The position numbers and the translations under genes are program-made. A model generated the notes under the pieces. It did not search any database. It had not been told where the DNA came from and saw nothing but the letters and a program-made list of their open reading frames with translations. DNA of 64,000 nt from Cellulosimicrobium sp. ES-005 (GTDB lineage Bacteria; Actinomycetota; Actinomycetes; Actinomycetales; Cellulomonadaceae): contig NZ_CP159290.1 in the NCBI RefSeq assembly GCF_040448685.1, positions 3,410,001-3,474,000 on the forward strand, written 5' to 3'. Within the stretch, counting starts at the first letter, position 1. Each line of letters starts with the position of its first letter. Below are positions 32,913-48,841 of this stretch, one piece after another.

Positions 32913-32914
32913 TG

Positions 32915-33307: not shown

Positions 33308-33370
33308 TTCTCGGGTGCGGCTACTTCACCGCGGCGGCCCGCTGTCCCCCACGCCTGGCATGCTGCAGAC

Positions 33371-35089
33371 GTGAACCAGCTGCATGGCATTGGGATCGAG
33401 GGCTACAGGTCGTTCAGCCACGGATCGGCGCAGTATCTCGCGCCCATGGCAAAGATGAATCTCGTCGCGGGCCAGAACAACGCCGGGAAGTCGAACCTGC
33501 TGCGAGTCATCGCGGGCTCCCTGCCTGGTGGGCGGCGTGCCTCGCAGGCACACCCGCTTGACATGCCAGTGGGCGCAGGGGCCGATGACGGTCCTGCGCG
33601 CGTGTCGATCGCGTTGCCGACGGAGGTGTTCGCTGAGGCTCTTCGGGCCCGTGTCGGCTCCCGGCTCGGTGCGCGTGACTTCGCCGCCATGGTTGCTCGT
33701 TTTCAAGAACTGCTGGGGCAGCCTGGGCTCGAGGATCTCCTCTGGTACCGGTACGTCTTCAAGAATCCAGGACTTGAGCTCGACACCGACTGGGTCCTCG
33801 AGCGCGACCAGGAACAGACCAGCAGCCACCGCGAAGACTCTCGCTTCCTGTCATCGGCTATTCGCAGCATGTCTGGAGGTTCGTCACATGAGGACCTCCA
33901 GAGAGTCCTCACGACGATGGATCCAGTCGGCAACCTTCCCCCGGCCGCCACGATCTCGGCGTTTCGTCGAATCGAGACCGGTGACCAGGAGGGTTCACTT
34001 GATGGCGCCGGTCTGATCCATCGCCTGGCTGAACTCGAGCGACCCGAGGCCGTCGGCCACGATGAAGAGCGCGCCAAGTTCGATGCGATCCAAGAGTTCA
34101 CGCGAACCGTCCTCGACGATCCCGGGCTCACCTTGACCGTGCCCACGACGCGAAACACGGTCAACATCCGCCTGTCAGAGGGTGGAGTACTCCCGCTCGA
34201 GCACATGGGTACTGGCATCCACCAGGTCGTGATCCTCGCTGCAGCCGCGACCCTCCTGACAAATACCGTCGTGTGCATGGAAGAGCCGGAGATCCACCTC
34301 CACCCCCTCCTGCAACGCAAGCTGCTGAACTACCTGGCCCACGAGACGACGAACCAGTACGTCATCGCGACTCACTCGGCCCACATGCTCGACGCCGACG
34401 TGGCATCGATCTTCCATCTCACCCACGACACGCGCTCCGGCACGAAGCTCGACCGGGCCACGACCCCCGTCCAGAGGGCGGGCATTTGCGCCGATCTTGG
34501 CTACCGCGCCTCGGATCTTGTCCAGGCGAACGCGGTGGTCTGGGTTGAGGGCCCGTCAGACCGGATCTACATCCGCAAGTGGATCGAGCTCCTCGAGCCG
34601 AGCATGGTCGAGGGGATCCACTACTCGATCATGTTCTACGGCGGTCGGCTACTCAACCACCTCACGGCCGATGACCCCGATGTCGATGAATTCATCTCCC
34701 TGCGCAGACTCAACCGCCAGATCGCGATTCTGATCGACTCGGACCGGATCAAGCCTAGAGCGCGGATCAACGCGACGAAGAGGCGTGTCGTCGACGAGCT
34801 CTCGACCGAGGGGTTCGCCTGGGTGACGCACGGCTACACGATCGAGAACTACGTGCCCTTCGAGGACTTCCGAGCGGCGGTCGTGGCACGACACGGCGGC
34901 GCGCGCCTCGAAGCAGTCGATCGGTGGGGTAACCCTCTAGCTGCGCCGGCCCTCACGGGCGTTAAGCAGCCCGACAAGCTCGGGATCGCTCGCGGTGTTG
35001 CCGAGCGCTTGAGGCCGGACAGCTCGTGGCCGTATGACCTGCGAGAAAAGGTCCGCGGTCTGGTCGACTTCATCCGCGCCGCGAACTGA
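33371..35089 (+). CDS. OLD-family ATPase with Toprim-like nuclease domain
   Basis: 572 residues, GTG start. N-terminal ABC/SMC-like ATPase: Walker A GQNNAGKSN (residues 34-42), signature-like region PLEHMGTGIHQVVILAAA, Walker B TVVCMEEPEIHLHP, and His switch ATHSAHML. The C-terminal third has Toprim features: VVWVEGPSDRIYIRKW (Glu) and ILIDSDRI (DxD). This architecture is shared by P2 OLD and GajA of the Gabija system. No UvrD-like GajB follows, so it would be a stand-alone class 1 OLD nuclease, probably for phage or plasmid exclusion. Confidence 0.87.
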   Translation: MNQLHGIGIEGYRSFSHGSAQYLAPMAKMNLVAGQNNAGKSNLLRVIAGSLPGGRRASQAHPLDMPVGAGADDGPARVSIALPTEVFAEALRARVGSRLGARDFAAMVARFQELLGQPGLEDLLWYRYVFKNPGLELDTDWVLERDQEQTSSHREDSRFLSSAIRSMSGGSSHEDLQRVLTTMDPVGNLPPAATISAFRRIETGDQEGSLDGAGLIHRLAELERPEAVGHDEERAKFDAIQEFTRTVLDDPGLTLTVPTTRNTVNIRLSEGGVLPLEHMGTGIHQVVILAAAATLLTNTVVCMEEPEIHLHPLLQRKLLNYLAHETTNQYVIATHSAHMLDADVASIFHLTHDTRSGTKLDRATTPVQRAGICADLGYRASDLVQANAVVWVEGPSDRIYIRKWIELLEPSMVEGIHYSIMFYGGRLLNHLTADDPDVDEFISLRRLNRQIAILIDSDRIKPRARINATKRRVVDELSTEGFAWVTHGYTIENYVPFEDFRAAVVARHGGARLEAVDRWGNPLAAPALTGVKQPDKLGIARGVAERLRPDSSWPYDLREKVRGLVDFIRAAN

Positions 35090-35110
35090 CCAACGCCTGG
35101 TGCTCGTGGC

Positions 35111-35752
35111 CTACTCGCATCCGACTCCGTCACCATCTCGGTCGAGCTTGCGGGAGTATCCGGGCTGGCCTTCGTAGATGGGTGCGGCACCTGCTGCGCG
35201 GACGGCGTCGCAGTTCTTGTAGAACGCGGGTGCGGGTTCTGGTTCGGGCTGCGGTGTGGGTGCGGGCGGCGGTGCCGGGGCTGGGTCAGGGACGATGACC
35301 GGTGCGGTTTCGGGCTCGGGCACGACCACCGGGTCAGGCACGGGCACGGGTTCGGGTGCTGGGGGCTCGGCGGCGGCCTCGGCCTGAACGTAGGAGCCGA
35401 CGGCTCCGTCGGCTGCGGGCAGGAGTTGGTCGGGGCAGGTGGTGAGGATGCGGGCGATGGCGTCGTGCTCGGCCTGGGTGACCCATAGCTTGTAGGTGGC
35501 CTTGACCGCGACCTGGCGGGCGACGTACTCGCACCGGAACGCCTTGTTCGGTGGCAGCCAGGTCGCCGCGTCCCCGTCGCCCTTGGCCTGGTTCGTCGGT
35601 CCGTCGACCGCGAGCAGGTTCAGCGGGTCGTTCGCGAACACCCGGCGGGTGTCGGCGTCGAGCTGTTGAGCGCCCTTCTGCCACGCGTCCGACAGCGCGA
35701 CGACGTGGTCGATCTGCACGGCGCTGGACGTCGCGTTGCCCCGCTGAAACAT
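35111..35752 (-). pseudogene. 5'-truncated HNH (DUF1524-like) - Excalibur protein
   Basis: 213 residues from the first in-frame ATG, beginning abruptly at QRGNATSSAVQIDHVVALSD, which is the middle of the HNH fold in related secreted nucleases; the signal peptide and first half are missing. DHVV and NLLAVDGPTNQAKGDGD carry the HNH residues. A 60-residue Pro/Glu linker leads to a C-terminal Excalibur calcium-binding domain (YKNCDAVRAAG ... DRDGDGVGCE). The sequence immediately upstream is a 15-bp palindrome unrelated to the gene, so the loss was probably by recombination. Confidence 0.7.
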
Positions 35753-35753
35753 C

Positions 35754-35768
35754 GGGTATCGGATACCC
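35754..35768. repeat. 15-bp palindrome at the truncation point of the HNH gene
   Basis: GGGTATC-G-GATACCC, perfect arms. It lies exactly where homology of the nuclease to full-length relatives ends, so it may be a recombination site or an operator brought in by the rearrangement. The rest of 35769-35944 shows no gene. Confidence 0.55.
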
Positions 35769-35944
35769 TCGTCGCACCGGTAATCGACGACGTACGAATG
35801 GTGGCCGCGATGGTCCCCCGAGGGACGGCCAGGCGCCTGAACTCAGCTCGTGCAGCGAAGTGCGCCGGACACCCCCGACGCGGCATCCCCACTCCCAGGT
35901 GGGTAGGGGCTCTCAGCAGGGTTGAAGCTGAGTTGGAGTCGTCG

Positions 35945-35984
35945 CTCTCCCGCAGGAGCAACCCGCAAAGGGCCTGCGGGAGAG
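35945..35984 (-). terminator. Terminator downstream of the TIR-like gene
   Basis: 12-bp perfect stem (35945-35956 with 35973-35984) just after the minus-strand TIR-like gene ends. Confidence 0.65.
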
Positions 35985-36005
35985 TCAGGCGGACTCGCCT
36001 TCCGA

Positions 36006-36842
36006 TCACATGTCCTTCCGCACACGACCGCTCACTCGCAGGCCGTGGGCGCGCAGCGTCCGGGCGAACGGGCGCAGCTCGCGCCTGGCGGCCCTCGTGC
36101 TCTCGGGAATCGAGAAAGTGTGCTTGCGCTTGTGGCGGTCCACCAGGCGAAGTACCTCACGGTTTCGGGTCTTGACGTGCCACCCCTGGGCTTCCGCTGC
36201 GCGACAGATGTAGTCGATCTCGTCTTCGAGACGTTTTACATCACCGGCGGGGTTAGCGATCGTGAATGAGCTGCCGGCACCTCCGCGCGCAGCCTTCTCC
36301 GCCGACCTCCGCTGCCTAGCGCTCTGGCCAGCTAGTCGCTGAGTTGTCGCCGGAGTCGGGGCTTCGGTCGCTTGGCGCGGGCCAAGCTTCTTGATCTGCT
36401 CCACAGCGTCGAGCAGGCCGCCGGTCAGGGAGGCTCTGACGTTGCTGTCCTCGCGCTCCGCGTACGCCGAGAGCAGCGTGAATCCACCGAGGTCCGACGG
36501 CAGCTTGACCCCCTCCTTTGGGGGCAAGATGAAGACCCGTTCTGGTCCGATCACACCCATGAAGAGGCCCAGCTCAAAGACAACGTTGTCCCGTGGGGCC
36601 TTACCGACGACCTGCCGAGACTCGACCATGTCGTCTGCCGACAAGACCAGGACGGCAAAGTCGGACTCCCTCGCCTCTCCGACGAGTGATTGCAGGGTCG
36701 TCTGAGAGGCACCGAAGGTCCCCTGGTTCCACACCGTGCACTCGATGTTCGCCTCACGCTTGCTCTCCAGAACGACCTGGAGGTTCTGGGCAACAGTGAG
36801 CGCCTCGGACGACGACCCGATGAAGACGTGCAACTTACTCAA
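36006..36842 (-). CDS. TIR-like (Cap12/Pycsar-TIR type) effector with HicA-like C-terminal domain
   Basis: 278 residues from a TTG at 36842, chosen because GGAGG is 8 bases upstream and the family begins right there with KLHVFIGSSSEA. The first 135 residues match the predicted nucleotide-binding TIR-like family (PF10137): CTVWNQGTF, DFAVLVLSADDM, RDNVVFELGLFMG. In cyclic-nucleotide defence these domains degrade NAD+. After a charged linker, the last 75 residues (GWHVKTRNREVLRL ... HTFSIP ... LRAHGLRV) resemble a HicA/double-stranded-RNA-binding fold. No cyclase gene is adjacent. Slightly lower GC than the chromosome. Confidence 0.75.
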   Translation of the reverse strand: MSKLHVFIGSSSEALTVAQNLQVVLESKREANIECTVWNQGTFGASQTTLQSLVGEARESDFAVLVLSADDMVESRQVVGKAPRDNVVFELGLFMGVIGPERVFILPPKEGVKLPSDLGGFTLLSAYAEREDSNVRASLTGGLLDAVEQIKKLGPRQATEAPTPATTQRLAGQSARQRRSAEKAARGGAGSSFTIANPAGDVKRLEDEIDYICRAAEAQGWHVKTRNREVLRLVDRHKRKHTFSIPESTRAARRELRPFARTLRAHGLRVSGRVRKDM

Positions 36843-36945
36843 CCTGAGCACCTCCGGGGCGCGACTATGCAAACTTCTCCGGCGCCCCGTCTGACGCCGC
36901 ACCGCCGTGCTGGTGAGGGAGAGCGCCCCTTCTGGCCGAGCCAGC

Positions 36946-37513
36946 CTATGTCCCGATCGCGTCCATGTGCCGGTAGAGCGTGTCGCGCGAGACGCCGAGC
37001 GCGCGCGACGGCGGCTCGGGACTGCCCGCCGGCTAGCGCGACACGCGCGGCCGCTCCACGGTCGGGTGTCATGACGCTCGGGCGGCCGCCAACACGGCCG
37101 CGGGCGCGGGCGGCGGCGAGGCCGCCGAGGGTGCGTTCGCAGGCGAGGTCGGCTTCCATCTGCGCGACGGCGGCGAGCACGTGCACCATGAGCCGCCCGG
37201 TCGCGCTCGAGGTATCGATCGTCTCCGTGAGCGACCGGAGCGTGACGCCGCGCTCGTCGAGGTCGCGCACAAGGCGCGCGACGTGCGCTGCGGAGCGTCC
37301 GAGCCGGTCGAGCTTCGTGACGACGAGCGTGTCCCCCTCCCGCAGCCCGGCGAGGAGTCGGGCGAGCTCGGGGCGGTCCTCGCGGCGCCCGGAGGTCTTC
37401 TCCACGACGACGTCGCGGACGTCGACGCCGCCGACGTCGGTGAGCGCGTCGACCTGAGCGTCGAGGCTCCGCGCCGTGGTGGAGACCCGGGCATACCCGT
37501 AGACGTGTGCCAT
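36946..37513 (-). pseudogene. Serine recombinase (resolvase), frameshifted in the HTH
   Basis: N-terminal catalytic domain is intact from ATG 37513: YGYARVSTT with the nucleophilic Ser, TKLDRLGRS, and SATGRLMVHVLAAVAQMEADL. At a GC-dinucleotide run (36998-37008) two bases are missing relative to the expected ALGVSRDTLYRHM HTH, which then reads correctly in the next frame to a TAG at 36946. The shifted frame instead runs on to 36839, ending just past the TIR gene start. The protein would cut DNA but bind poorly, unless slippage restores the frame. Confidence 0.75.
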
Positions 37514-37528
37514 GTCGGCGACGGTAGC

Positions 37529-37567
37529 GAAAACCCCTGGGTCGCGTTCTGCGTCACCGGGGTTTTC
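37529..37567. repeat. Inverted repeat at the resolvase promoter
   Basis: GAAAACCCC (37529-37537) pairs with GGGGTTTTC (37559-37567), just upstream of the resolvase ATG. Likely the recombinase's own site or operator. Confidence 0.55.
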
Positions 37568-37627
37568 GGGCACTAGTTCTGCGACATGTTCTTGCGGCGT
37601 GTCGCGGTTGCCGTCGAGGTGTCCGGG

Positions 37628-37655
37628 AAACGGTCGGTTCTGCGGTGTCAGACAA
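37628..37655 (+). repeat. Hairpin-associated repeat, copy 1 (partial)
   Basis: AAACGGTCGGTTCTGCGG (37628-37645) continues with TGTCAGACAA, and is shared with copies at 39884, 42313 and, shortened, 50941. Here the preceding hairpin is degenerate. Confidence 0.6.
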
Positions 37656-38748
37656 CCTTGTTGGAAGTCACCAATCCGCTGCCCGCCCCGGGCGGCGAGA
37701 GCCGATGGGCGAGACGTTGCGCGTCGCAGTGGACATACCCGAGTAGGGCTGAGCCGCGGTCGCGTTGCCAGGGCCGTCCGATCGCGTACAGCCCGGGCAC
37801 GGGGGTGGTGTCACCATCGACGACGAGGGCGCCGCCCTCGTCGAGCGCGCCCGGGATGATCCAGGTGTCGTCGTGCCGGTACCCGGTGGCCTACACCACC
37901 GCTGCGGGCCGCAGGCTGTGACCGTCGACGAACTGGACCGTGCCGCGGTCGGCCGCCGCGGCCCGGGAATGGAACGTGACGCCGGCGGCGCGCAGGGCGC
38001 GGCGCGGAGTGCCGATGACGGGCTCGTTCGCGCTCAGGCGGCGCCCGACGAGCGAGGTGGGCGGGGCGTGGATCGCGCGGGTGGTGGTGAGCCACCAGAA
38101 CAGGTCCCGCCCCAGGACGCGCTGCGGGAGCTCGCGCAGGCGCGCACCCTCCGACAGGTGCACGGCCCGCCCGGCCCTGGCGAGCTCGAGCGCGATCTGG
38201 CGTCCGGAGTTCGCGCCCCCGACCACGAGCACCGGCCCTGCGGGGAGCAGGTCCGGGCGCCGGTAGTCGTCGGTGTGGGCCTGCTCGACACCCGCGCCCA
38301 GACGGGCCGTGAACGACGGCGTCCAGAGCCGGCCGAACGCACCGGTGGCCACGACCACCCGGCCTGCACGGATCGTCTCCCCACCGGCCAGCTGCAGACG
38401 AAAGTCGCCTGCCGCGCCCTCCAGGCGAGTGACCTCGGCGCCGGTGCGCACGGGCAGGTCGAACCGTGTCGCGTAGTCCTCGAGGTAGGCCGCCACCTCG
38501 TCCTTGCCGGGGTAGGACCACGGGTCGGCGGGGAACGCCGCCCCGGGCAGGGCGTCGTACCGCGCGGGGGTGAACAGGCGCAGCGAGTCCCACCGTTCCG
38601 CCCATCTCGCCCCCACCCTCTCGGCGCGCTCGAGCAGCAACGCATCGCCGCCGCCGCGGGTCAGGTAGTACCCGAGCGCGAGCCCGGCCTGACCCGCGCC
38701 GACCACGACGACGTCGCGCACGTCATCCGGTCCCCCTGAAGTGCTCAC
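37648..38748 (-). pseudogene. Flavin monooxygenase (CzcO/FMO-like) with an internal stop
   Basis: From GTG 38748: FAD-binding GAGQAGLALG, FMO-like WDSLRLFTPARYDALPG, NADPH-binding GGANSGRQIALELA, then a TAG right after RPAAVV where the family has Tyr-Ala-Thr-Gly. The frame continues past the stop with ATGYRHDDTWIIPGALDE and GLYAIGRPWQRDRGSALLGYV to TGA at 37648. A single TAC/TAT to TAG change would explain it. Divergent from the CmtR-like gene and probably once part of the same metal or metalloid response. Confidence 0.85.
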
Positions 38749-38758
38749 GGCGCAGACA

Positions 38759-38776
38759 GTACACGCAACCGTGTAC
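38759..38776. promoter_or_regulatory. Operator between the monooxygenase and cmtR-like genes
   Basis: Perfect 7-bp arms GTACACG-CAAC-CGTGTAC, 4 bases before the regulator start. Position and symmetry fit an ArsR/SmtB-family site controlling both divergent genes. Confidence 0.65.
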
Positions 38777-38780
38777 CGTC

Positions 38781-39119
38781 GTGAGTATGGAGACGGTGAC
38801 CCTCACCCACACCGCGGCCCTGGCCAGACTCGGGCACGCCCTGTCCGACGAGACGCGGGCACGGATCATGCTGACGCTGCGCGAGGCACCGGCCTACCCG
38901 GCCGACCTCGCCGACGCCCTCGGCGTCTCGCGCCAGGTCATGTCGAACCAGCTCGCCTGCCTGCGGGGCTGCGGGCTCGTCGAGGCGATCCCGGACGGTC
39001 GGCGCACCTGGTATCGCCTGGCCGACTCCCACCTCGCGCCGGCGCTGGACGACCTGCTCAAGCTCGTCGTCACCGTCGACCCGACCTGCTGCTCGCCCGA
39101 GGGGTGCACCTGCTCATGA
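38781..39119 (+). CDS. CmtR-like ArsR/SmtB metal-sensing repressor
   Basis: 112 residues, GTG 38781 or ATG 38787. Winged HTH (YPADLADALGVSRQVMSNQLACLRGCGLV) with two Cys spaced by three residues exactly as in the Cd/Pb sensor CmtR of mycobacteria, plus the conserved YRLADSHLA. The C-terminus CCSPEGCTC adds four Cys that could complete the site. Expected to leave the DNA when Cd, Pb or a similar soft metal binds. Its stop overlaps the ATG of the CDF transporter. Confidence 0.88.
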   Translation: MSMETVTLTHTAALARLGHALSDETRARIMLTLREAPAYPADLADALGVSRQVMSNQLACLRGCGLVEAIPDGRRTWYRLADSHLAPALDDLLKLVVTVDPTCCSPEGCTCS

Positions 39120-39823
39120 CGTCCCTCAGCATCGGGCCCAAGCCGCTGTCCGCCGCCCGGCGCGCCGTACTCGAACGGCGGGTGCGCTGGATCGTCGCCG
39201 CCACGATCACCTACAACGTCCTCGAGGCCGTCGTCGCCATTGCCGCCGGCCGGATCGCGTCCTCGGCCGCCCTCGTCGGGTTCGGTCTCGACTCCGTCGT
39301 CGAGGTGCTCTCCGCGGCCGCCGTCGCTTGGCAGTTCGCCGCGCCCGACCCGCACCGGCGCGAACGCACGGCCATGCGCCTGATCGCCCTCAGTTTCTTC
39401 GGCCTGGCCGTGTTCGTGTCCGTCGACGCCGTGCGCACGCTGTTCGGCGCGGCCGAGCCCGACCACTCCACCGTCGGGATCGTGCTCGCCGCCGTCAGCC
39501 TGGCGATCATGCCCTTCCTGTCGTGGTTCGAACGCCGCACCGGGCGCGAGCTCGGCTCTGCCTCAGCCGTCGCGGACTCCAAGCAGACGCTGCTGTGCAC
39601 ATACTTGTCCGCGGTGCTCCTGGCCGGGCTGCTGCTCAACTCCACCCTCGGCTGGACGTGGGCCGACCCGCTCGCCGCCCTGGTCATCGCCGCCGTCGCC
39701 GTCAAGGAAGGCCTTGAAGCCTGGCGCGGCGACGCCTGCTGCACGCCCGTAGGCGCGCTCCTGGGCCACGACGACGAGGACGCCGGCTGCACCGACGGCT
39801 GCTGCACACCCGGCACGGAGTAA
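39116..39823 (+). CDS. Cation diffusion facilitator-like transporter
   Basis: 235 residues, ATGA overlap with the regulator. Six hydrophobic helices; GFGLDSVVEVLSA and WADPLAALVIAA carry the Asp residues typical of CDF metal sites, with ADSKQTLLCTYLSAVLLAG between. No large cytosolic domain; instead a Cys-rich tail (DACCTPVG ... GCTDGCCTPG) that may chelate thiophilic metal. With the CmtR-like sensor it should export Cd, Zn or Pb. A hairpin repeat follows. Confidence 0.85.
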   Translation: MTSLSIGPKPLSAARRAVLERRVRWIVAATITYNVLEAVVAIAAGRIASSAALVGFGLDSVVEVLSAAAVAWQFAAPDPHRRERTAMRLIALSFFGLAVFVSVDAVRTLFGAAEPDHSTVGIVLAAVSLAIMPFLSWFERRTGRELGSASAVADSKQTLLCTYLSAVLLAGLLLNSTLGWTWADPLAALVIAAVAVKEGLEAWRGDACCTPVGALLGHDDEDAGCTDGCCTPGTE

Positions 39824-39842
39824 CCAGCACGCAGAACCCCGC

Positions 39843-39909
39843 GTTCGTCAGGCGTCGCAGAACCTCCTTCTGCGACGCCTGACAAACGGTCAGTTCTGCA
39901 GCTGTCGGC
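39843..39909 (+). repeat. Hairpin-associated repeat, copy 2
   Basis: Arms 39843-39862 and 39868-39887 pair over 20 bp with one mismatch around CCTCC, followed by the shared AAACGGTCAGTTCTGCA tail. The left flank (ACGCAGAACC) is also shared with copy 4 at 50.9 kb. 39910-40216 holds no recognisable intact gene. Confidence 0.75.
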
Positions 39910-40216
39910 AGCGTTGTAGATCTCAGACAAGGCGCGCCCTTGGTGGCGGCGCGAGTCGGTCTACTGTCGAGCGGTCCTTTCGCCTCCCGCAGTTCGATGT
40001 CTACCTCGGTCGCATCCTCGCCGCCTGCGACGTCGCGATCGTCGCCGGCTCCCTCGCCTGGGGCATGGCCATTGCGGCGCCGGAGTGTGACCGCGCCAGC
40101 GTTGGCCGCGGAAGTTGCTGTGCGCCGTCACCTTCGCCACGGCTACGAGGACGGGGAGGGCGGGACTGCGACATCGAAGTTCGGCGGTCCGAACTATTTT
40201 TTACGGCTCACCTTGA

Positions 40217-40264
40217 CCACTACATGTTGTGTGACTAGCGTGGCCAAGCCACTACATCTACCGA
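40217..40264 (+). promoter_or_regulatory. Pair of NrdR boxes upstream of nrdI-nrdF
   Basis: Box 1 at 40217-40232 has core CTACATGTTG, a full match to C-N-A-N-A-T-N-T-N-G. Box 2 at 40249-40264 has CTACATCTAC, one mismatch at the last G. Their starts are 32 bp apart, the same as before nrdD. A TAGCGT -10-like hexamer (40236) lies between them, so bound NrdR would block it. Confidence 0.75.
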
Positions 40265-40277
40265 AGGGTGCACGGAC

Positions 40278-40703
40278 GTGAGCGAGCTCGGAGCGCTGGT
40301 GTACTTTTCGAGCGTCAGTGAGAACACCCACCGTTTCGTGCAGCGTGTGGACCCGACTCGCCTCGGACTGGAGTGCCATCGCGTTCCGCTGCGTCCGCGT
40401 GAGGGGGTCTTGCGTGTGACCGAGCCCTTCGTGCTGGTCCTGCCGACCTACGGTGGCGGCAACGAGGGCGGTGCCGTCCCGCGCCAGGTCGTGAAGTTCC
40501 TCAACGACGCGCACAACCGGTCGTTGATCCGCGGCGTCATCGCCGCGGGCAACACCAACTTCGGCGAGGCGTACTGCATCGCCGGCGACATCATCTCCGC
40601 GAAGTGCCAGGTGCCCTACCTGTACGCCTTCGAGCTCCTGGGGACAGCCGAGGACGCTGAGCGTGTGCGCGACGGCCTGGCCCGCATGACCGCCGCCCAC
40701 TGA
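40278..40703 (+). CDS. nrdI: NrdI flavodoxin-like activator of ribonucleotide reductase
   Basis: 141 residues, GTG start with GAAGGG upstream. The FMN-binding loops are visible: [15 protein letters not shown] near the start, [17 protein letters not shown] in the middle and the [13 protein letters not shown] loop that contacts the flavin. NrdI supplies superoxide for assembling the NrdF cofactor (Mn-tyrosyl in class Ib, DOPA radical in class Ie). Followed 28 bases later by nrdF and preceded by NrdR boxes. No nrdH or nrdE is present. Confidence 0.93.
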
Positions 40704-40731
40704 CCAGCCCACCACGAAAGGACATCCACCC

Positions 40732-41727
40732 GTGCCCGAACCAGCGCCAACGACGTCCGCGACCTACCACTGCGTCGACCGCATCCGCCCGATCAACTGG
40801 AACCGGATCGAGGACGAGAAGGACCTCGAGGTATGGAACCGCCTGACCGCGAACTTCTGGCTCCCGGAGAAGGTCCCGCTGTCGAACGACCTACCCACCT
40901 GGCGGACCATGAACGATGTGGAGCGCACCACCGTGATGCGCGTGTTCACCGGCCTGACCTTGCTCGACACCGTGCAGGCCAGCCTCGGCGAGGTGTGCCA
41001 GATCCAGGACTCCAAGACCGCCCACGAGGAAGCGATCTACACGAACATCGCCTTCATGCAGTCCGTGCACGCCCGCTCCTACTCCTCGGTGTTCTCCACC
41101 CTCACCAGCACCCAGGAGATCGACGCGGCCTACGAGTGGGCCGTAGGGCACGACGTCCTCCAACGCCGCGCGACGCTTGTCATGGAGCACTACGTCGGCA
41201 ACGACCCGTTGCGCCGCAAGGCGTCCGCGGTCCTGCTGTCCTCGTTCCTCCTCTACGCCGGGTTCTACCTCCCGCTCTACCTGTCCTGCCGCGGAACCCT
41301 GACCAACACCGCGGACATGGTCCGCCTCATCCTGCGCGACAAGGCCGTGCACGGGTACTACAGCGGATACAAGTACCAGCGCGGCCTCGAGCAGGCTTCG
41401 CCGCGTCGTCGGCGCGACCTGCACGACTTCACCCACGACCTCCTGCGCGAGCTGTACGACCTCGAGCTTGCCTACACCGCAGACGTGTTCGACGACCTCG
41501 GCCTGACCGCCGACGCCCAGGGCTTCGTCCGCTACAACGCGAACAAGGCACTCATGAACCTCGGCTACGACAGCCTCTTCACCGCCGAGGACACGCGCGT
41601 CAGCCCCGAGGTCCTCGCCGCACTGTCTCCCGGCGCGGACGAGAACCACGACTTCTTCTCGGGCTCCGGTTCGTCCTACGTCATCGGCCGCGCCGTCGAG
41701 ACCAACGACCACGACTGGGACTTCTAG
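40732..41727 (+). CDS. nrdF: NrdF with QSK metal-ligand substitutions: putative metal-free class Ie R2
   Basis: 331 residues, closely similar in layout to class Ib NrdF up to the C-terminal DDWDF-like tail (DHDWDF) that docks on NrdE. Aligned with class Ib proteins, Asp79, His113, His207 and the radical Tyr117 (VHARSY) are kept, but the three ligand glutamates are replaced: Gln110 (FMQSVH), Ser170 (LLSSFLLYAGF) and Lys204 (RDKAVHG). This Q-S-K set defines one of the two known class Ie groups, in which no metal is bound and a DOPA radical forms with NrdI help. The rest of the protein shows no sign of decay, so these are not random losses. Confidence 0.92.
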   Translation: MPEPAPTTSATYHCVDRIRPINWNRIEDEKDLEVWNRLTANFWLPEKVPLSNDLPTWRTMNDVERTTVMRVFTGLTLLDTVQASLGEVCQIQDSKTAHEEAIYTNIAFMQSVHARSYSSVFSTLTSTQEIDAAYEWAVGHDVLQRRATLVMEHYVGNDPLRRKASAVLLSSFLLYAGFYLPLYLSCRGTLTNTADMVRLILRDKAVHGYYSGYKYQRGLEQASPRRRRDLHDFTHDLLRELYDLELAYTADVFDDLGLTADAQGFVRYNANKALMNLGYDSLFTAEDTRVSPEVLAALSPGADENHDFFSGSGSSYVIGRAVETNDHDWDF

Positions 41728-41753
41728 ACCCCACCCACCCCAGACAGGACCCC

Positions 41754-42230
41754 ATGACCACCACGCACCGCACCACCGCCCTACTCACCCACCACCTCGG
41801 ACTCCCCACACCCGACGAGCAGGAGGCAACCATCCGCGACGCCGGCATCAGCGTCGACGAGCACACCACCATCGCCCCGCTCACGGACGAGGACTGGGCC
41901 GACGCCGTCGCCTCGATCGCCGCGGGACTCGGCCCGGGCGACACCCTCGCTGTCGCACGGCTCGTCGCGCTCGGCGCAACCCCCCGCCTCCTGCTCGACG
42001 CGCTCGAGGAGGTGCTCGAACGTGGCGCGCACCTCGCGTGCGCCCACGAACGCATCGACACGCGTACCGCACCCGCCGCAGCACACGCCCTGACGGCCCT
42101 AGCCCATGCCATCGAGGAAGGCCGAGACGTCCGCACCCGGGCCTTCCTCGCCACACCCACACTTCACGGCGTCACCCCGCCCCACGCCCGCTTCGTCCCC
42201 CTTGATTCCTACGAACGCACCACCGCCTGA
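41754..42230 (+). CDS. Unknown helical protein, third gene of the nrdI-nrdF operon
   Basis: 158 residues, ATG 26 bases after the nrdF stop, no promoter between. Sequence is helical with a repeated Ala/Leu pattern (LGPGDTLAVARLVALGATPRLLLDALEEVLERGAHLACAHE) and no known catalytic motif; two Cys at most. Not similar to NrdH, NrdE or thioredoxin. Position suggests a role with the reductase, but this is inference only. Confidence 0.6.
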   Translation: MTTTHRTTALLTHHLGLPTPDEQEATIRDAGISVDEHTTIAPLTDEDWADAVASIAAGLGPGDTLAVARLVALGATPRLLLDALEEVLERGAHLACAHERIDTRTAPAAAHALTALAHAIEEGRDVRTRAFLATPTLHGVTPPHARFVPLDSYERTTA

Positions 42231-42282
42231 TACCGCGCGAGAAGACCCAACCACCACGCGGCACGGCCGCCGTCAGAAGTCG

Positions 42283-42330
42283 GTCGGACGGATCTCCTTG
42301 GGTCCGTCCGACAAACAGTCGGTTGTGCGG
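42283..42330 (+). repeat. Hairpin-associated repeat, copy 3
   Basis: GTCGGACGGA (42283-42292) pairs with TCCGTCCGAC (42303-42312), then the shared tail AAACAGTCGGTTGTGCGG. Lies just after the nrdIF operon and could also end its transcripts. Confidence 0.65.
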
Positions 42331-42453
42331 CGCGCGGCCGGATCCTCTTCGCAAGAGTTCGAACCAGCGTTGGGGCCTGGGGCGGTGAGCCTGGGGGCGG
42401 TCGATGGGATGCTCTCGTTCCATCGGTCGTACTGGAACGAGAGGATCTGCACC

Positions 42454-42663
42454 ATGGTGAGCTTCAAGTTCGACAGCAAGGGCCTGGCCGACCTGCAGAA
42501 GCATATGGAGCAGCAGCTGAAGAAGGCTGAGGTCGAGGCGAACAGGGCGGCTGCACGCGAGTCGACGCCTGAGGCCAAGGCCCGAGCCTTTGCACGGGTC
42601 CTGCGCAAGTACGGGGTCGAGAACGTCAACGAGGCCGAGCTCCGCAAGAAGTTCGGTCGCTGA
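42454..42663 (+). CDS. Small charged coiled-coil protein
   Basis: 69 residues, almost entirely charged helix (LADLQKHMEQQLKKAEVEANRAAARE) with a short C-terminal LRKKFGR. Lies 49 bases upstream of the DUF3800-like gene and probably in the same unit. Function unknown. Confidence 0.5.
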   Translation: MVSFKFDSKGLADLQKHMEQQLKKAEVEANRAAARESTPEAKARAFARVLRKYGVENVNEAELRKKFGR

Positions 42664-42712
42664 ACTCGCGCTCGCCCGCAGAGGTGTCGTTCGGCGTCCG
42701 TACCCTTGCGTC

Positions 42713-43273
42713 GTGCCCATCAGCGTGTCGGACCGTTCCCTGCGAGGAGGTCACGTGTTCGTCGACGAGAGTAAGAAGCAGGACTATCTGCTCGTCGCTG
42801 CGGTGATCATCCCCGGCGAGCTCGGGCTCGCGCGCAAGACGGTGCGTGGTCTGCAGAAGCCCGGCCAGCGCCGGTTGCACATGGTCAAGGAGTCTCCGGC
42901 GCGTCAGCACACGATCCTCTCGACGCTCGGGACGATCGGCGCCCAAGTCACGATCTACCAAGCCAGCGTCGGATACCGCACCAACATCGAGCGGCGCGGA
43001 GCGTGCCTTGAGCGCCTCGTCGAGGACATCGCCACAGCGGGCTGCGCCCGGCTGATGCTCGAGAGCGAGCAAGGAGAGGAAGAGCGCGACCGGCGGCTGC
43101 TGTACCGGGAGACGGGCCGGCGTGGGTGCCGTGACTCGTTGGCGTACGACCACGCGACCGCGGCCGCCGAGCCCTTGTTGGCGATCCCGGACGCGATCGC
43201 GTGGGCCTGGGCCCGTGGTGGTGACGCGCGTCGTCGCGCCGAGCCGCTGGTCGCCGACGTCGTCCGGCTCTAG
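42713..43273 (+). CDS. DUF3800-like (RNase H fold) protein
   Basis: 186 residues, GTG start. Begins with GGHVFVDESKKQDYLLVAAVIIP, resembling the DUF3800 opening strand that carries an Asp-Glu pair, then HMVKESPARQHTIL and a C-terminal DSLAYDHATAAAEPLLAIPDAIAWAWARG with Asp residues where an RNase H-like site would be expected. DUF3800 proteins are frequent in mobile and defence islands with no settled function. A hairpin terminator follows. Confidence 0.6.
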   Translation: MPISVSDRSLRGGHVFVDESKKQDYLLVAAVIIPGELGLARKTVRGLQKPGQRRLHMVKESPARQHTILSTLGTIGAQVTIYQASVGYRTNIERRGACLERLVEDIATAGCARLMLESEQGEEERDRRLLYRETGRRGCRDSLAYDHATAAAEPLLAIPDAIAWAWARGGDARRRAEPLVADVVRL

Positions 43274-43282
43274 AAAGCGCGA

Positions 43283-43320
43283 AACCCGAGCGCCACAACC
43301 GTCCGGAAGGGTCTCGGGTT
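43283..43320 (+). terminator. Terminator after the DUF3800-like gene
   Basis: AACCCGAG (43283-43290) pairs with CTCGGGTT (43313-43320), with further weak pairing inside. Confidence 0.6.
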
Positions 43321-43464
43321 CACTTCTCGCCGCTACTGCGGTGAGCTGTGACAATCTTAGGCACTCGGGTTGCGCGCGCGCAACGAACAGTCCGTTCCCG
43401 CGAGGTGATCTTGGGCGGGCTCCCTCGCCCTGACCATTAAGGCATCCCAAGGATGACTTGAAGA

Positions 43465-43496
43465 GCGACTTTTGCTTGACGGTCGTCAAAAGTCGC
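43465..43496. promoter_or_regulatory. Nested palindrome upstream of the copper/heme cassette
   Basis: GCGACTTTTG (43465-43474) pairs exactly with CAAAAGTCGC (43487-43496), and inside it TTGACG-GT-CGTCAA (43476-43489) is a second perfect palindrome. It ends 64 bases before the first cassette gene. Candidate operator for an unlinked regulator. Confidence 0.55.
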
Positions 43497-43560
43497 CGGT
43501 ACGGTCGAGGCCGGCAGACGGTGACGAAGTGGTCATCGTCCTGGATGAGGGTGTGGGTCG

Positions 43561-44595
43561 ATGGCGACTGGCAGGGGTGCCCGGTTCGACGGCGCGGCGT
43601 TGCGTGAGGATCTGCGCGCGTCATGGAAGGACGCGACGGCCGCGTTGGTGCTGACGCTCGCGATCTTCGCCCTGTTGTACTGGCGGGTGGCGGAGGGCAC
43701 CTCGGCGACGATCGAGGTGATGCCGTTCCTCGCGGACGCGCCGCTGTACTGGATGTACTGGCTGTGCCAGGCGTTCGGGTGGTCGGGTCTGCTGTGGGCG
43801 TGGATCACGGTGATGCTCGGGCTCGTCCGCTCCTCGCGACGCCCGGCGTGGATGCCCGTTTCGACGGCGCGCCTGGAGCGGTGGCACCGCACGACGAGCC
43901 TGACGACGATCGGTCTGATGTTCGCGCACGCGTTCTGGTTCTTCGCGGAGCTGGTGCGGGAGAACGCGGACGGGCTCTCGACGCCGGCGTTGCTGTGGAG
44001 TGCGTTCGTGGACGTGTTCGTGCCGGGTGGGTACTCCTCGGGCACGGGGCAGATCGCGATCCTGGTCGGACTACTGGCGCTGTACCTGTCGATCCCGCTC
44101 GGGCTGGCTTTCTACGCGCGCCGGTGGATGGGTCCGCGGGTGTGGCAGGCGCTGCACGCCTCGATCATCGTGGTGTACGTGCTGAGCGTGTGGCACACCC
44201 TGCTGTACGGGACGAACGTCTGGTACGACGGCGCGTTCCGCACCACGATCTGGCTCCTGCAGCTCCCCGTCGCCGGGCTGCTGCTCGTCCGGCTCCTCGC
44301 CCCGGCCCGCACGCCCGGGCCGTCGGTGCTCGACACGGTCGGGCGCTGGATCGGACGCCTCGCGGTCTCGGCAACGATCGTCGTCGTCCTGCTCGTCACC
44401 GCGACGGGCCGTGACGGCGGGCGCACGCCCGGCGCGGACGGAGCCGGGCTCAACGTCACCCAGGTGATGGTCTGGACGGGGTTCGCCCTGTTCGTGGTTG
44501 CGGTCGCCGTCACGGTGGTGCGCGCCCACCGTCGCCCGCGCGCGACCCCCGAGCGTCAGCAGACTCCCGCGCCCGCGCTCGAGACGACCCGGTAG
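43561..44595 (+). CDS. Ferric reductase-like transmembrane cytochrome
   Basis: 344 residues, six to seven membrane helices. Four histidines sit as two pairs on two helices: His109/His123 (ERWHRTT, FAHAFW) and His199/His212 (ALHASII, VWHTLLYG), spaced 13-14 residues as in two-heme ferric reductase-like domains (MsrQ/NOX/Fre). No FAD/NAD reductase domain is fused, so it needs a partner. First gene of a cassette that handles copper, iron or heme at the membrane. Confidence 0.82.
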   Translation: MATGRGARFDGAALREDLRASWKDATAALVLTLAIFALLYWRVAEGTSATIEVMPFLADAPLYWMYWLCQAFGWSGLLWAWITVMLGLVRSSRRPAWMPVSTARLERWHRTTSLTTIGLMFAHAFWFFAELVRENADGLSTPALLWSAFVDVFVPGGYSSGTGQIAILVGLLALYLSIPLGLAFYARRWMGPRVWQALHASIIVVYVLSVWHTLLYGTNVWYDGAFRTTIWLLQLPVAGLLLVRLLAPARTPGPSVLDTVGRWIGRLAVSATIVVVLLVTATGRDGGRTPGADGAGLNVTQVMVWTGFALFVVAVAVTVVRAHRRPRATPERQQTPAPALETTR

Positions 44596-44690
44596 CGGCG
44601 CTCCGTGACCGTGGACCGCTGGTGTGAGATGGGCGACCGATCGTGACGTGCTGTCGATCCTGCCGACAGGCCGCGGCTAAGGTGGCGCGC

Positions 44691-45323
44691 GTGGACTCCC
44701 AGAAGCAGCAGGTAGCGCGCATGGTGCGCGCGGTCCTGCTGGCGTCCACCACGTTCTCCTTTGCCGCGGTCGCGCACGCCTGGGGTGGTGGACACCTGCC
44801 CTCGGGACTGGGCCTGCTCGTCCTGGGTGCACTGACCGCCGCGGCGTGCAGCGCTGCCGCGCGCTTTCGCGCGCGCGCCTGGTGGCTCGTCGCGTTCCTC
44901 GGGCTGCTGCAGCTCGTGCTGCACCACGGCTTCATGATCTTCACCCCGGCCACCGCGCACGGATTCGCCGCGACGGGCGCGGCCACCGGGTCTCACCACG
45001 GCGCGGTGGATCCCGCCCTGGTCGCCGGGGCCGTGGACGTCGCGCACGCGGGGCACGCGATGGGCCCGGGCATGCTCGCCGCGCACGCGGGTGCCGTCGT
45101 CGTGACGGCGCTGGTGATGGGTGCGGCCGAGCGCGCCGCGGGCCTGGCGTGGTCGGTGTGGACCTTCCTGCTCCCGGTCCTGCTGGGGCTGTTCCGGCCG
45201 GTCGCCCTGCCACGTCCGCGCTCGTCGTGGGCGTCCGCTCCTGAGCCGGCCGCGCTGTCGCGGCTGGTGGGCTCGGTCGCGCCCCGGCGCGGTCCCCCGG
45301 TGTCCTTCGCGACCTTCGCCTGA
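44691..45323 (+). CDS. Histidine-rich membrane protein of unknown function
   Basis: About 210 residues from GTG 44691 (AAGGTGG upstream); GTG 44643 would add a CCRSC motif. Four to five hydrophobic helices with many histidines in loops (LVLHHGFMIF, GSHHGAVD, AHAGHAMG, AAHAGAV), a pattern common in copper-handling membrane proteins of actinomycetes. Followed by the PepSY protein. Its substrate is inference from the neighbours. Confidence 0.65.
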   Translation: MDSQKQQVARMVRAVLLASTTFSFAAVAHAWGGGHLPSGLGLLVLGALTAAACSAAARFRARAWWLVAFLGLLQLVLHHGFMIFTPATAHGFAATGAATGSHHGAVDPALVAGAVDVAHAGHAMGPGMLAAHAGAVVVTALVMGAAERAAGLAWSVWTFLLPVLLGLFRPVALPRPRSSWASAPEPAALSRLVGSVAPRRGPPVSFATFA

Positions 45324-45474
45324 GCCCACCTGCCAGCCCGACGGGGCGTGGTGCGGGTGTGTAGGCGGGGTCGACTCTGCCCCCTTTCTCCCCGTGCACG
45401 CGTCCCGCGTGACGGGCACGTCGTCGTGCCCGTCCTCGCGCTCGTGCGTGCTGCCTCGAAGGACACCACCGCTG

Positions 45475-46971
45475 ATGACTTCTGTGACCCCTCGCACGAG
45501 CGAGGAAGCTCCCACCCGACCGCCTACCGAGCCGGCGCCCGAGTCGACCGGCCCGGACCTGCCGCCGCCGGCCCGGCCCGGGCTGTGGGAGTCGGTGCGC
45601 CCGCTGCTGCACCGGCTGCACTTCTACGCCGGGATCCTGGTCGGCCCGTTCCTGCTGGTCGCGGCGACCACCGGCCTGCTGTACACCGCGACCCCGACGC
45701 TCGAGCCGATCGTGCACCGCCACGAGCTGTTCGTCGACGAGGTCGGGACCACGACCTACGCCCTGGACCAGCAGCTCGCCGCGGCCCGTGAGGCCCACCC
45801 CGAGGGCACCGTCACCCAGGTCCGTCCGCCGGCCACGGCGGACGGTACGACCCGGGTCGTGCTCGCCGTGGACGACGTGCCCGAGGGCTACACCCGCACC
45901 GTGTTCGTCGACCCGTACACCCTCGAGGTGCGCGGCGCGCTGGCGACGTACGGTGAGTGGCTACCGGTCCGGGCGTGGGTCGACGACCTGCACCGCAACC
46001 TGCACCTCGGCGAGGCCGGGCGCTGGTACTCCGAGCTCGCCGCCTCGTGGCTGTGGGTCGTCGCGCTCGGCGGGCTCGCGATGTGGATCGCCCGCGTCGC
46101 CCGCACCCGCAAGGCGCGCCGCCTGGTCGTGCCCGAGGTGCGCGCCAAGTCCGCACGCAAGCGGGTGCTGTCCTGGCACGGGACGGTGGGCACCGTGATC
46201 GTGCTCGGACTCCTGGGCCTGTCCGCGACCGGCCTGACGTGGTCCGCGAACGCCGGGGCGAACATCGGCGAGCTGCGTACCGCCCTGTCCTGGGGCACCC
46301 CGACCGTGGACACCACGCTGCCTGGCGCTACCCCGCCCGCCGCCGCTGCGGACGAGCACGCCCACCACCATGGCGGTGGGGCCGGGCCGGCGTCGGACGA
46401 CGTCCTGACCGCGGGGGTCGGGATCAACGGGGTCCTCGCTGTCGCGCGTGCCGAAGGCCTGCGGGAGAACCCCCTGCAGGTCACACCCCCGGCGGAGGAC
46501 GGGCAGGCGTGGGTTGTCAAGGAGAACAAGCGCTCCTGGCCCTCTCAGCAGGACGCGATCGCCGTCGACGGCGCCACGGGCGAGGTCGTGGACCGGATCG
46601 ACTTCGACGACCAGCCCGCCGCGGCGAAGCTGACCCGCTGGGGCATCGACGCGCACATGGGCCTGCTGTTCGGCATCTGGAACCAGATCGCCCTGGCCGC
46701 CGTCGCGATCGGCCTCATCACGCTCATCATCCTCGGGTACCGGATGTGGTGGCAGCGCCGCCCGACCCGCTCCACCTCCCGGCGCCCCGGACCGCCGATC
46801 CCGCGCGGCGCGCTGCGCCGCGCACCGCTGTGGCTCGCGGTCACCGTCCTCGTGATCGCCGCCGCCGTCGGCTGGTTCATCCCGTACTTCGGCATCCCGC
46901 TCGCGGTGTTCCTGCTCGTCGACCTGCTGCTCGCCGCCCGCGCCCGCCGCGTCACGAAGGTCCCCGCATGA
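45475..46971 (+). CDS. PepSY-associated transmembrane protein
   Basis: 498 residues. After a disordered Pro-rich N-terminus come four main membrane helices with two PepSY-like extracytoplasmic domains between them; LHFYAGILVGPFLLVAATTGLLY and the DLHRNLHLGEAGRWYSELAA segment are typical of the PiuB/YddB group, with conserved His for heme. A His-rich loop (DEHAHHHGGG) may bind copper. Members act in siderophore-iron reduction or membrane electron transfer. AAGGA ribosome binding site. Confidence 0.87.
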   Translation: MTSVTPRTSEEAPTRPPTEPAPESTGPDLPPPARPGLWESVRPLLHRLHFYAGILVGPFLLVAATTGLLYTATPTLEPIVHRHELFVDEVGTTTYALDQQLAAAREAHPEGTVTQVRPPATADGTTRVVLAVDDVPEGYTRTVFVDPYTLEVRGALATYGEWLPVRAWVDDLHRNLHLGEAGRWYSELAASWLWVVALGGLAMWIARVARTRKARRLVVPEVRAKSARKRVLSWHGTVGTVIVLGLLGLSATGLTWSANAGANIGELRTALSWGTPTVDTTLPGATPPAAAADEHAHHHGGGAGPASDDVLTAGVGINGVLAVARAEGLRENPLQVTPPAEDGQAWVVKENKRSWPSQQDAIAVDGATGEVVDRIDFDDQPAAAKLTRWGIDAHMGLLFGIWNQIALAAVAIGLITLIILGYRMWWQRRPTRSTSRRPGPPIPRGALRRAPLWLAVTVLVIAAAVGWFIPYFGIPLAVFLLVDLLLAARARRVTKVPA

Positions 46972-47018
46972 GCCCGCGCCGCGCCGGCACCTCACCCACG
47001 AACCCCCTGGAGAACACT

Positions 47019-47597
47019 ATGACCCGCACCCGCACCCGCCTGCTTGCCAGCCTCGGCGCCCTGACCCTGACGGCCGCCCTGGCGGCCTGCTCGACGGGCA
47101 CCGCCGACGCCGGAGACGACGCTGCAACCGCCCCCGCGGTGGCTGAGGCCGACGCGCTGGACATCACCGACCCGTGGGTCAAGGCCGCCGACGAGGGCAT
47201 GACCGCCGCGTTCGGCACCCTGACCAACGACTCCGACGCCGACGTGCGCATCGTGTCCGCGACCAGCGAGGTGACGTCCTCGATGGAGCTGCACGAGATG
47301 GCCACCGGCGACGACGGCGCGATGGTCATGCGCCAGAAGGAGGGCGGCTTCGTCGTCGCGGCCGGCGCCTCGCACGAGCTCTCCCCCGGTGGGGACCACT
47401 TGATGTTCATGGACCTCACCACCCCGGTCCAGCCCGGCGACGAGGTCACCGTGACCCTGACCGCGGAGGACGGGTCGACGTTCGAGTTCACGGCGCCCGG
47501 CCGGTCGTACTCGGGCGCGAACGAGGAGTACGACGGCGGCGAGCACGGCGAGGGCGACATGGAGATGGACATGGAGACGGAGCACGCCGACTCATGA
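47019..47597 (+). CDS. PCuAC-type copper chaperone lipoprotein
   Basis: 192 residues. Lipoprotein signal with lipobox LAAC near residue 24. The Cu(I) site of the PCuAC fold is complete: MELHEM, MVMRQKEGG, and GGDHLMFMDL (the H-x-M pairs). C-terminal tail is rich in Asp, Glu, His and Met (EGDMEMDMETEH), giving extra copper ligands. It delivers copper to cytochrome oxidase or similar enzymes outside the membrane. Stop overlaps the DyP peroxidase ATG. Confidence 0.93.
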   Translation: MTRTRTRLLASLGALTLTAALAACSTGTADAGDDAATAPAVAEADALDITDPWVKAADEGMTAAFGTLTNDSDADVRIVSATSEVTSSMELHEMATGDDGAMVMRQKEGGFVVAAGASHELSPGGDHLMFMDLTTPVQPGDEVTVTLTAEDGSTFEFTAPGRSYSGANEEYDGGEHGEGDMEMDMETEHADS

Positions 47598-48841
47598 CCG
47601 GCTCCGACAAGGCTGTTCCCGTACGGTGCGGCGCCTCGCGCCGCGCGTTCCTCCAGGGTGGTGCCGCCGCGCTCGGCGGCGCCGCCCTGGCGCTCGGCGG
47701 CCGCGCCGCGGTCGACGCCGCCGCCGCCGAGCCGCCCCCGCCGCCTGCCCCACCGGTGGACGCGACGGGCACCGCGACCGTCGCGTTCCGGGGCGCGCGG
47801 CAGCCCGGGGTGGACACCGTCCCGCAGGCGTTCGCCGCGCTCGTCGCGCTCGACCTCGTCGAGGGCGTGGACCGCGACGCTCTGGTGCGGCTCATGGGCA
47901 TCTGGACCGACGACGTCGAACGCCTCATGGCCGGCCGTCCCGGCCTGGCGGACACCGAGCCCGAGCTCGCGACCATCCCCGCCCGGCTCACCGTGACGCT
48001 CGGGTATGGGCCCGGCGTCTTCACCGCCGCGGGTCTGGAGCACCGGCGCCCGACCTGGCTGCGTCCTCTGCCCGCGTTCGGGGTCGACCGGCTCGAGGAC
48101 CGGTGGAACGACGGCGACCTCCTGCTGCAGGTGTGCGCCGACGACGACGTGACCGTCACCCACGCCGTGCGGCTCCTGGTCAAGGAGGCCCGCACGTTCG
48201 CCGCCGTGCGCTGGGTCCAGCGCGGGTTCCGCCGCGCCCCCGGCACCGAGAAGCCCGGCACGACGATGCGCAACCTCATGGGCCAGGTCGACGGCACCCG
48301 CAACCTCGACCCCGCCGTCGACCCGGACCTGGTCTGGCACGCCGACGGTTCTCGCGGCTGGCTCGCCGGCGGCACGTCCATGGTCGTGCGACGCATTGCG
48401 ATCAATCTCGATACCTGGGACGAGCTGGACCGTTCCGGCCGTGAGGAGGTCGTGGGGCGGCGCCTGGACACCGGGGCACCGCTCACCGGTACCCGTGAGC
48501 ACGACGAGCCCGATCTGGAGGCCAAGGGGCCGAACGGGTTCGAGGTCATCGGCTCGTTCGCCCACATCCGTCGTTCACGCACCGACGATCCCGAGCAGCG
48601 GTTCCTGCGGCGGGCCTACAACTACGACGCCGCTCCCGTACCGGGTGCCCTGTCTGACTCGGGGTTGCTGTTCGTCACGTTCCAGGCCGACGTCGACCGC
48701 CAGTTCGTCCCCATCCAGCAGCGCCTGGACGAGCTCGACCTGCTCAACCAGTGGACCACTCCTGTCGGGTCCGCGGTCTTCGCGATCCCCCCGGGCGCCC
48801 GCGACGGGGAGTACCTCGGACAAGGACTCTTCGATGCCTGA
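47594..48841 (+). CDS. Tat-exported DyP-type peroxidase (EfeB-like)
   Basis: 415 residues, ATGA overlap with PCuAC. Twin-arginine signal SRRAFLQGGAAALGG then a Pro-rich spacer. Family motif GQVDGTRN (catalytic Asp), proximal His in IGSFAHIRRS and the heme-pocket Arg downstream. DyP/EfeB enzymes oxidise porphyrinogens and dyes or release iron from heme; efeUO partners are absent here, so it probably works with the copper/heme proteins of this cassette. Confidence 0.92.
   Translation: MTGSDKAVPVRCGASRRAFLQGGAAALGGAALALGGRAAVDAAAAEPPPPPAPPVDATGTATVAFRGARQPGVDTVPQAFAALVALDLVEGVDRDALVRLMGIWTDDVERLMAGRPGLADTEPELATIPARLTVTLGYGPGVFTAAGLEHRRPTWLRPLPAFGVDRLEDRWNDGDLLLQVCADDDVTVTHAVRLLVKEARTFAAVRWVQRGFRRAPGTEKPGTTMRNLMGQVDGTRNLDPAVDPDLVWHADGSRGWLAGGTSMVVRRIAINLDTWDELDRSGREEVVGRRLDTGAPLTGTREHDEPDLEAKGPNGFEVIGSFAHIRRSRTDDPEQRFLRRAYNYDAAPVPGALSDSGLLFVTFQADVDRQFVPIQQRLDELDLLNQWTTPVGSAVFAIPPGARDGEYLGQGLFDA

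Follow-up and report, generated by a model that had tools for sequence, protein, structure and literature searches.

The closest described relatives of the locus studied here are the class Ie R2 proteins of the QSK type. According to PMC11846895, 275 QSK genes are found in 266 genomes, all of them from Actinomycetota, and in 104 cases the arrangement is nrdIF with no nrdE next to it. Where nrdE is absent from the QSK stretch, virtually every genome has this gene at another place, and the authors conclude that an R1 serving class Ib appears to be usable by QSK R2s as well. The structures 8RAG and 8RAH represent the Tyr and DOPA forms of the class Ie R2-QSK of Bifidobacterium (Gardnerella) vaginale, a protein that contained only trace Mn/Fe, in which Y150 was partly converted to DOPA upon co-expression with NrdI and K237 is located at the Mn1 position (PMC11846895). 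The first-pass annotation of our locus had described class Ie as known mainly from Mollicutes and streptococci. This fits the VPK form, whereas the QSK genes reported in PMC11846895 are confined to Actinomycetota, where this form is common. The rarity in actinobacteria that was also claimed is not supported, given the 266 QSK genomes reported in that paper and the presence of the QSK codon pattern in 35 of the 396 genomes sampled from the order, spread over 10 of 110 genera, a count in which not every match was translated.

We studied a 64,000-nucleotide stretch, referred to as the window, of a Cellulosimicrobium genome, a genus also suggested by a 91% DNA match over 1.2 kb to a C. cellulans plasmid. 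It contains an intact open reading frame with a GTG start (nrdF-QSK, 40732..41727, + strand), which is translated into an R2 subunit of 331 aa and matches PF00268 with 273 bits in a domain profile search. In pairwise alignments to 102 NrdF rows, which include the cassette protein itself twice and four partial rows, the site residues of this protein are D79-Q110-H113-Y117-S170-K204-H207, while the genome's other NrdF and the full-length congener rows read D-E-H-Y-E-E-H. Alignment to class Ib and class Ie NrdF thereby bore out the first-pass annotation, which had placed Gln110, Ser170 and Lys204 (codons at 41059, 41239 and 41341, arithmetically right) at Glu ligand positions and had seen Asp79, His113, Tyr117 and His207 as kept; its offset of +2 to the C. 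ammoniagenes numbering was also correct when aligned to NrdF 1kgn. A class Ib R2 has four carboxylate and two His ligands, and three of the four carboxylates are replaced in the cassette NrdF. The automatic class Ib model TIGR04171 nonetheless scored above its cut-off for this protein.

The same set of residues was found in 77 of 80 named loci that were retrieved with the cassette protein as query, being the best 80 of 382, and therefore the QSK set is not due to chance. The three others, from Rothia, carry the class Ib set. The best solved match is 8RAG/8RAH (501 bits), followed by 9l6o (477 bits), which has a Glu at the position of Q110 in its alignment. The offset between the cassette NrdF and the B. 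vaginale QSK protein is +33, so that Q110, S170, K204 and Y117 correspond to Q143, S203, K237 and Y150, the residues named in the structure paper (PMC11846895). Trp43, Gln82, Tyr154, Leu174, Phe178 and Tyr316 are likewise kept, as is the DWDF at the C-terminus; with Leu at position 174 the protein shows the QSK state, whereas class Ib has Phe. W43, Q82, Y154, L174 and F178 (cassette numbering) are among the residues named in the radical-structure paper on Mesoplasma florum (PMC7615503). Judged from its sequence, the cassette NrdF is a class Ie R2 of the QSK variant with Y117 as the predicted DOPA site, an assignment already proposed in the first-pass annotation and supported by the residues, the closest structure and the tree described below.

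Immediately 5′ of nrdF-QSK lies nrdI (40278..40703, + strand), encoding a flavoprotein of 141 aa that is expected to give R2 its oxidant (PF07972, 8.4e-45; TIGR00333, 152 bits with a cut-off of 74.65). No nrdE was found beside this nrdIF cassette. In total, the genome harbours two R2 genes and one R1 gene, and the predicted usable NrdE is encoded in a normal class Ib nrdHIEF operon at about 1.113-1.117 Mb. The cassette R2 must consequently use the shared NrdE or be idle. Both R2s end in DWDF, the C-terminus that docks to R1. The genome's one class III NrdD (PF13597, 619 bits) is encoded in the core part of the window (9438-11207, - strand), approximately 13 kb left of the island described below. 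Since the host has all of class Ib and also a class III NrdD, it could in principle do without the cassette.

Taken together, we propose, with a probability of about 0.78, that the nrdI-nrdF cassette was acquired and encodes a class Ie (QSK) R2 which works without metal and shares the only large subunit of the host. The steps of the radical chemistry follow from characterised relatives. By analogy, NrdI would give superoxide or a related oxidant to the core of R2, where Tyr117 would be hydroxylated to DOPA, which would carry the radical, with Lys204 placed where Mn1 would be. The radical would then pass via Trp43 and the C-terminal tail to NrdE. The cassette would have entered this strain or a close ancestor by horizontal transfer, and nrdI would afterwards have been partly overwritten by a resident class Ib nrdI of the genus, presumably by gene conversion. 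If correct, a single cell would contain a metal-dependent and a predicted metal-free R2 sharing one R1, and a single-contig genome together with a same-species genome without the cassette provides comparison material.

The cassette is located on an accessory island of approximately 32 kb (23870..56126, no strand assigned), which was delimited by flank alignments to a same-species genome, its edges being the ends of these alignments. The flanks up to 23869 and from 56127 onwards match this genome (G007) at 98% and 95%, respectively, with 6.7 kb between them there. In a second genome (G004) matches stop at 23808 and resume at 56987, with 1.3 kb in between. The G+C content of the island is below that of the flanks in parts. 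Among 17 genomes of the genus, which include one other genome of the same species, only the present one has an NrdF match above 65% identity, and the exact QSK codon pattern is limited to one of the 221 family genomes. QSK is also present in L024, a MAG with the title Cellulomonas, so relatives at about the family level may have it, despite the lack of the exact pattern in the 220 other family genomes. Acquisition on an accessory island, as initially suggested, agrees with both the restriction of the motif to one of 221 family genomes and the insertion of about 32 kb, and horizontal transfer of the cassette is well supported.

When searching for the vehicle of this transfer, none was found among plasmid, phage and IMG/VR matches. 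No full-length nrdF match exceeded about 64% identity among the 40 matches listed from 531 plasmid records and from 799 phage records; three plasmid records had pieces at 80-90% identity outside the matches listed. With the active-site fragment as query, no match was above 66.4% among the eight listed from 429 plasmid records and from 607 phage records, and no record fell in an 80-90% band. A plasmid or phage home for class Ie was rejected, and all five matches in IMG/VR are of the class Ib type. As to a donor of nrdF, identity did not exceed 74.3% for any relative among the NrdF rows compared. The island harbours a resolvase-family gene, a gene for a TIR-domain protein (CAP12-like) and an AAA ATPase gene. 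The TIR-domain protein (36006-36902, - strand), of the CAP12/Pycsar effector family, adjoins the resolvase-family gene and has a possible role in defence; the AAA-ATPase (33371-35089), with weak similarity to retron effectors, is likewise a possible defence gene. At the right edge of the island lies an HTH_38/rve transposase (55424-56659, - strand), which we take to be IS30-like. Directly 3′ of nrdF, a 158-aa gene (41736-42230, + strand) gave a resolvase-like match of 23.0 bits, against a Pfam cut-off of 23.3 bits, and relatives of it were found in none of the 80 related loci.

Upstream of nrdI we found a pair of predicted NrdR boxes. Box 1 (CCACTACATGTTGTGT; 40217..40232, + strand), a palindrome that is read on both strands, has three mismatches to ACACWATATCTWGTGT, the NrdR-box consensus, and is the sole such place in the window, where 0.05 matches are expected. 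Box 2 (40249..40264, + strand) is weak, with five mismatches, and is separated from box 1 by a spacer of 16 bp. The score of this pair was reached by none of 500 shuffles. The region upstream of the native nrdH contains a box pair at the same distance of 32 bp, again with 0/500 shuffles, and an nrdR gene is present in the genome, so that the predicted elements of an NrdR-controlled operon are in place. Spacers of 15-16 bp are described for S. coelicolor, E. coli and L. monocytogenes (PMC12051234). Among 63 scanned QSK loci of either gene arrangement, 26 have an NrdR-like pair 5′ of nrdI (at most 2 of 100 shuffles). The 23 Corynebacterium loci in this set all have poor scores, with at least 13 mismatches per pair, and hence the NrdR-like pair is not general in QSK loci. 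The cassette is most likely expressed under NrdR, that is, in response to nucleotides, like the resident operon, as far as promoter motifs can tell. Additional metal control is possible.

The first-pass annotation had linked this location to dNTP synthesis under metal limitation. In its full form, this explanation states that the cassette spreads as a route to dNTPs when metal is limiting and is tied to the neighbouring metal genes. Metal-related genes are indeed located on both sides. Upstream, we found an ArsR-family regulator, which passed a metalloregulator subfamily model and for which the best model, the Cd/Pb sensor CmtR, stayed below cut-off, together with a cation-efflux (CDF) protein and an ArsO-like flavoprotein (below cut-off). 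Downstream are a gene whose 91% relative is annotated as ferric-reductase-like and genes for PepSY-TM, PCuAC, a Dyp peroxidase and CopD/CtaG. The Dyp peroxidase is EfeB-like, yet below the EfeB NCBIfam cut-off. Several of these neighbours suggest metal excess or copper handling and some suggest iron handling; together with the ferric-reductase-like gene, the EfeB-like peroxidase speaks for the proposal, whereas the remaining neighbours, suggestive of efflux and copper handling, speak against it.

In tblastn searches (E 1e-5) of the 80 related loci, several of which have short flanks, relatives of PepSY and Dyp were found near two loci, of the flavoprotein near one and of the resolvase near three, whereas relatives of the ArsR regulator, the CDF protein and the downstream gene were found near none. 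In S. pyogenes, which has both class Ib and class Ie, more Fe and Mn represses class Ie expression (PMC8463856). Since the neighbours are not conserved, the metal-limitation reading rests on adjacency in this genome and on the analogy to S. pyogenes. Scans of the window for IdeR/DtxR and Zur, the metal regulators covered, gave no sites with up to three mismatches to the consensus, and NrdR-like boxes are found instead. A functional link with the metal genes was accordingly rejected, and a role in metal limitation is possible by analogy and finds no support in the locus itself. We regard the spread of the cassette as a metal-limitation device as unlikely, although with some weight, and retain the acquired, metal-free R2 that uses the resident NrdE.

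To place the cassette NrdF, we built a tree of 73 rows (149 found, thinned to 72, plus the cassette protein). The QSK side (42 QSK rows, the cassette NrdF and one decayed QSK-derived row) and the class Ib side (29 rows) are split with 100/100 support, although the bootstrap had not fully settled. This was the placement put forward as a check in the first-pass annotation, and it positions the cassette NrdF inside the QSK clade, apart from class Ib. Within the clade it stands weakly (84/83) beside one Actinomyces row and has the longest end branch of the QSK side (0.61). Of 163 near-invariant QSK columns, 156 are retained. The cassette NrdF departs, however, from 5 of 144 columns that are strictly conserved, and no other QSK member departs from more than 2 of 141; it may be under relaxed constraint. 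Class Ib-like states are found at F172, T249 and D254.

This raises the question of whether the cassette is a decaying passenger, i.e. an R2 copy on an island whose gene is intact yet hardly used, or whose product is not active. Besides the long branch and the five departures from strict columns, the complete native class Ib operon and the presence of the cassette in only one of 17 genus genomes would agree with such a fate, as would the existence, in a different genome of the order, of a QSK-derived copy with clear signs of decay. That copy (L128, G263:C3) has deletions in the active-site helix and elsewhere; the same genome also has a copy with the QSK pattern on a different contig. In contrast, the frame in our strain is open, all seven active-site residues and the tested residues of the radical path are kept, and the promoter is NrdR-like. 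We consider a passenger rather improbable and a working R2 the better account. In a further genome, two NrdF fragments, one of them with an internal stop (G284:C14:12505-12905), are located about 3 kb from an intact NrdF and possibly represent a lost second R2 copy.

The fresh detail of the locus is the helper gene nrdI, which seems to be partly overwritten by the host version. The cassette NrdI and the resident class Ib NrdI are 84% identical, compared to 58-69% in 64 QSK loci with a NrdI match, and they group together (97/73) inside a clade with 97/93 support in a tree of 96 rows and few columns. This similarity is concentrated in a tract (40443..40657, + strand) of the class Ib-like type of the host genus, where 208 of 215 bases are identical to the native nrdI, including 65 of 71 third positions; identity is 97% inside the tract and 67.8% outside. 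Five other genomes of the genus have 6-7 mismatches to the cassette nrdI across the same tract. Any of several strains of the genus may therefore have been the donor of the tract. The native nrdI genes of the genus are 98-100% alike over 134 aligned codons, and the native gene is therefore not the mosaic. Of eight diagnostic positions in the tract, seven are class Ib-like and none QSK-like in the cassette; among four in the 5′ part, two are class Ib-like, one is QSK-like and one is neither.

It could be argued that no conversion took place, and that the tract reflects strong conservation or that the whole nrdI was imported from a close but so far unsampled relative of the genus. NrdI is indeed best conserved in the region of the tract, and native and sister-genus nrdI are also more similar there (86-89% in the tract, 75-82% elsewhere). 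Moreover, sister-genus nrdI also matches the cassette nrdI at 92-95% over shorter tracts, and the 5′ part of the cassette gene is not clearly of the QSK type. However, the step from 97% to 68% exceeds the difference of 6-14 points that a comparison of native and sister-genus genes shows between the tract and the 5′ part, and in codons for the same amino acid the silent third positions of cassette and native gene agree in 63 of 68 cases in the tract, compared to 20 of 36 before it. DNA identity inside the tract peaks at 75% for QSK-linked nrdI and at 90% for sister-genus genes. As a control, 12 other genomes with the QSK pattern and more than one nrdI were analysed, with their nrdI genes paired irrespective of the nrdF that each serves; the best tract score in their 14 nrdI pairs was 21, compared to 178 in the cassette. 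An origin without conversion is in our opinion quite improbable.

With a sharp, near-identical tract that includes silent sites and has no similar counterpart in the other lineages compared, the mosaic looks like a gene conversion from the resident to the incoming nrdI, as read from the alignments. In nrdF no tract comparable to that of nrdI was detected, the best segment being codons 21-53. Among titles and the beginnings of abstracts, no report of gene conversion in nrdI was found. More speculatively, the core of NrdI might have been replaced by the resident class Ib version as an adaptation to the host after transfer, resulting in a hybrid NrdI that serves the class Ie R2 and possibly both R2s. 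We give this a minor chance; if true, compatibility of the activase, not of R2, would limit which hosts take up class Ie. The mosaic also poses the question of whether a class Ib-type core can make DOPA in a class Ie R2. Separately, several genomes of one family (f4; G297:C2:1548815-1550959, L112, L114, L115 and L118) have two different nrdI genes close together, and in G297 they flank an nrdF with the QSK pattern on either side.

That the site binds metal despite the substitutions and works as class Ib, for which the remaining D79, H113 and H207 could speak, is hardly credible, as the QSK enzyme of B. vaginale, which has these residues too, contained just trace Mn/Fe and its Lys occupies the Mn1 position (PMC11846895).

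The kind of system found here is already published, and the cassette is one more QSK member, in a genus with 16 other genomes without it. Since the QSK class is described and common in Actinomycetota, the find will not surprise specialists. PMC11846895 was the only paper found on QSK with ribonucleotide reductase, and the species may already stand in its supplementary list; at the listing level, a search for Cellulosimicrobium nrdF gave only work on bifidobacterial RNRs. With the R2-QSK of B. vaginale, the cassette shares Q, S and K at the three ligand positions, the same Tyr, Asp and His residues, a class Ib-derived fold and NrdI as partner. B. vaginale, however, has nrdHIEF together, no other class I RNR and an extended N-terminus (PMC11846895), whereas the cassette consists only of nrdIF, in a cell that also has the full class Ib system, and its nrdI is a mosaic. 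The class Ie R2-VPK proteins of M. florum, S. pyogenes and Aerococcus urinae likewise have the three metal-binding Glu replaced and a DOPA radical, which is predicted for the cassette; they differ in their Val/Pro/Lys set, the order nrdFIE, their occurrence mostly in Bacillota and their position in a derived clade (PMC11846895). The resident class Ib NrdF (L001, L102) is 64% identical, has the DWDF tail and the same NrdE available, but carries the full Glu ligand set and is predicted to be a Mn2-Tyr radical enzyme. Most similar in arrangement are the nrdIF-type QSK loci of Actinomycetota (for example L023-L029, L036 and L037), in which nrdI is directly 5′ of nrdF-QSK with no nrdE between them. 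From these loci the cassette is set apart by an NrdF on the longest QSK branch and by a NrdI core of the class Ib type of its host genus.
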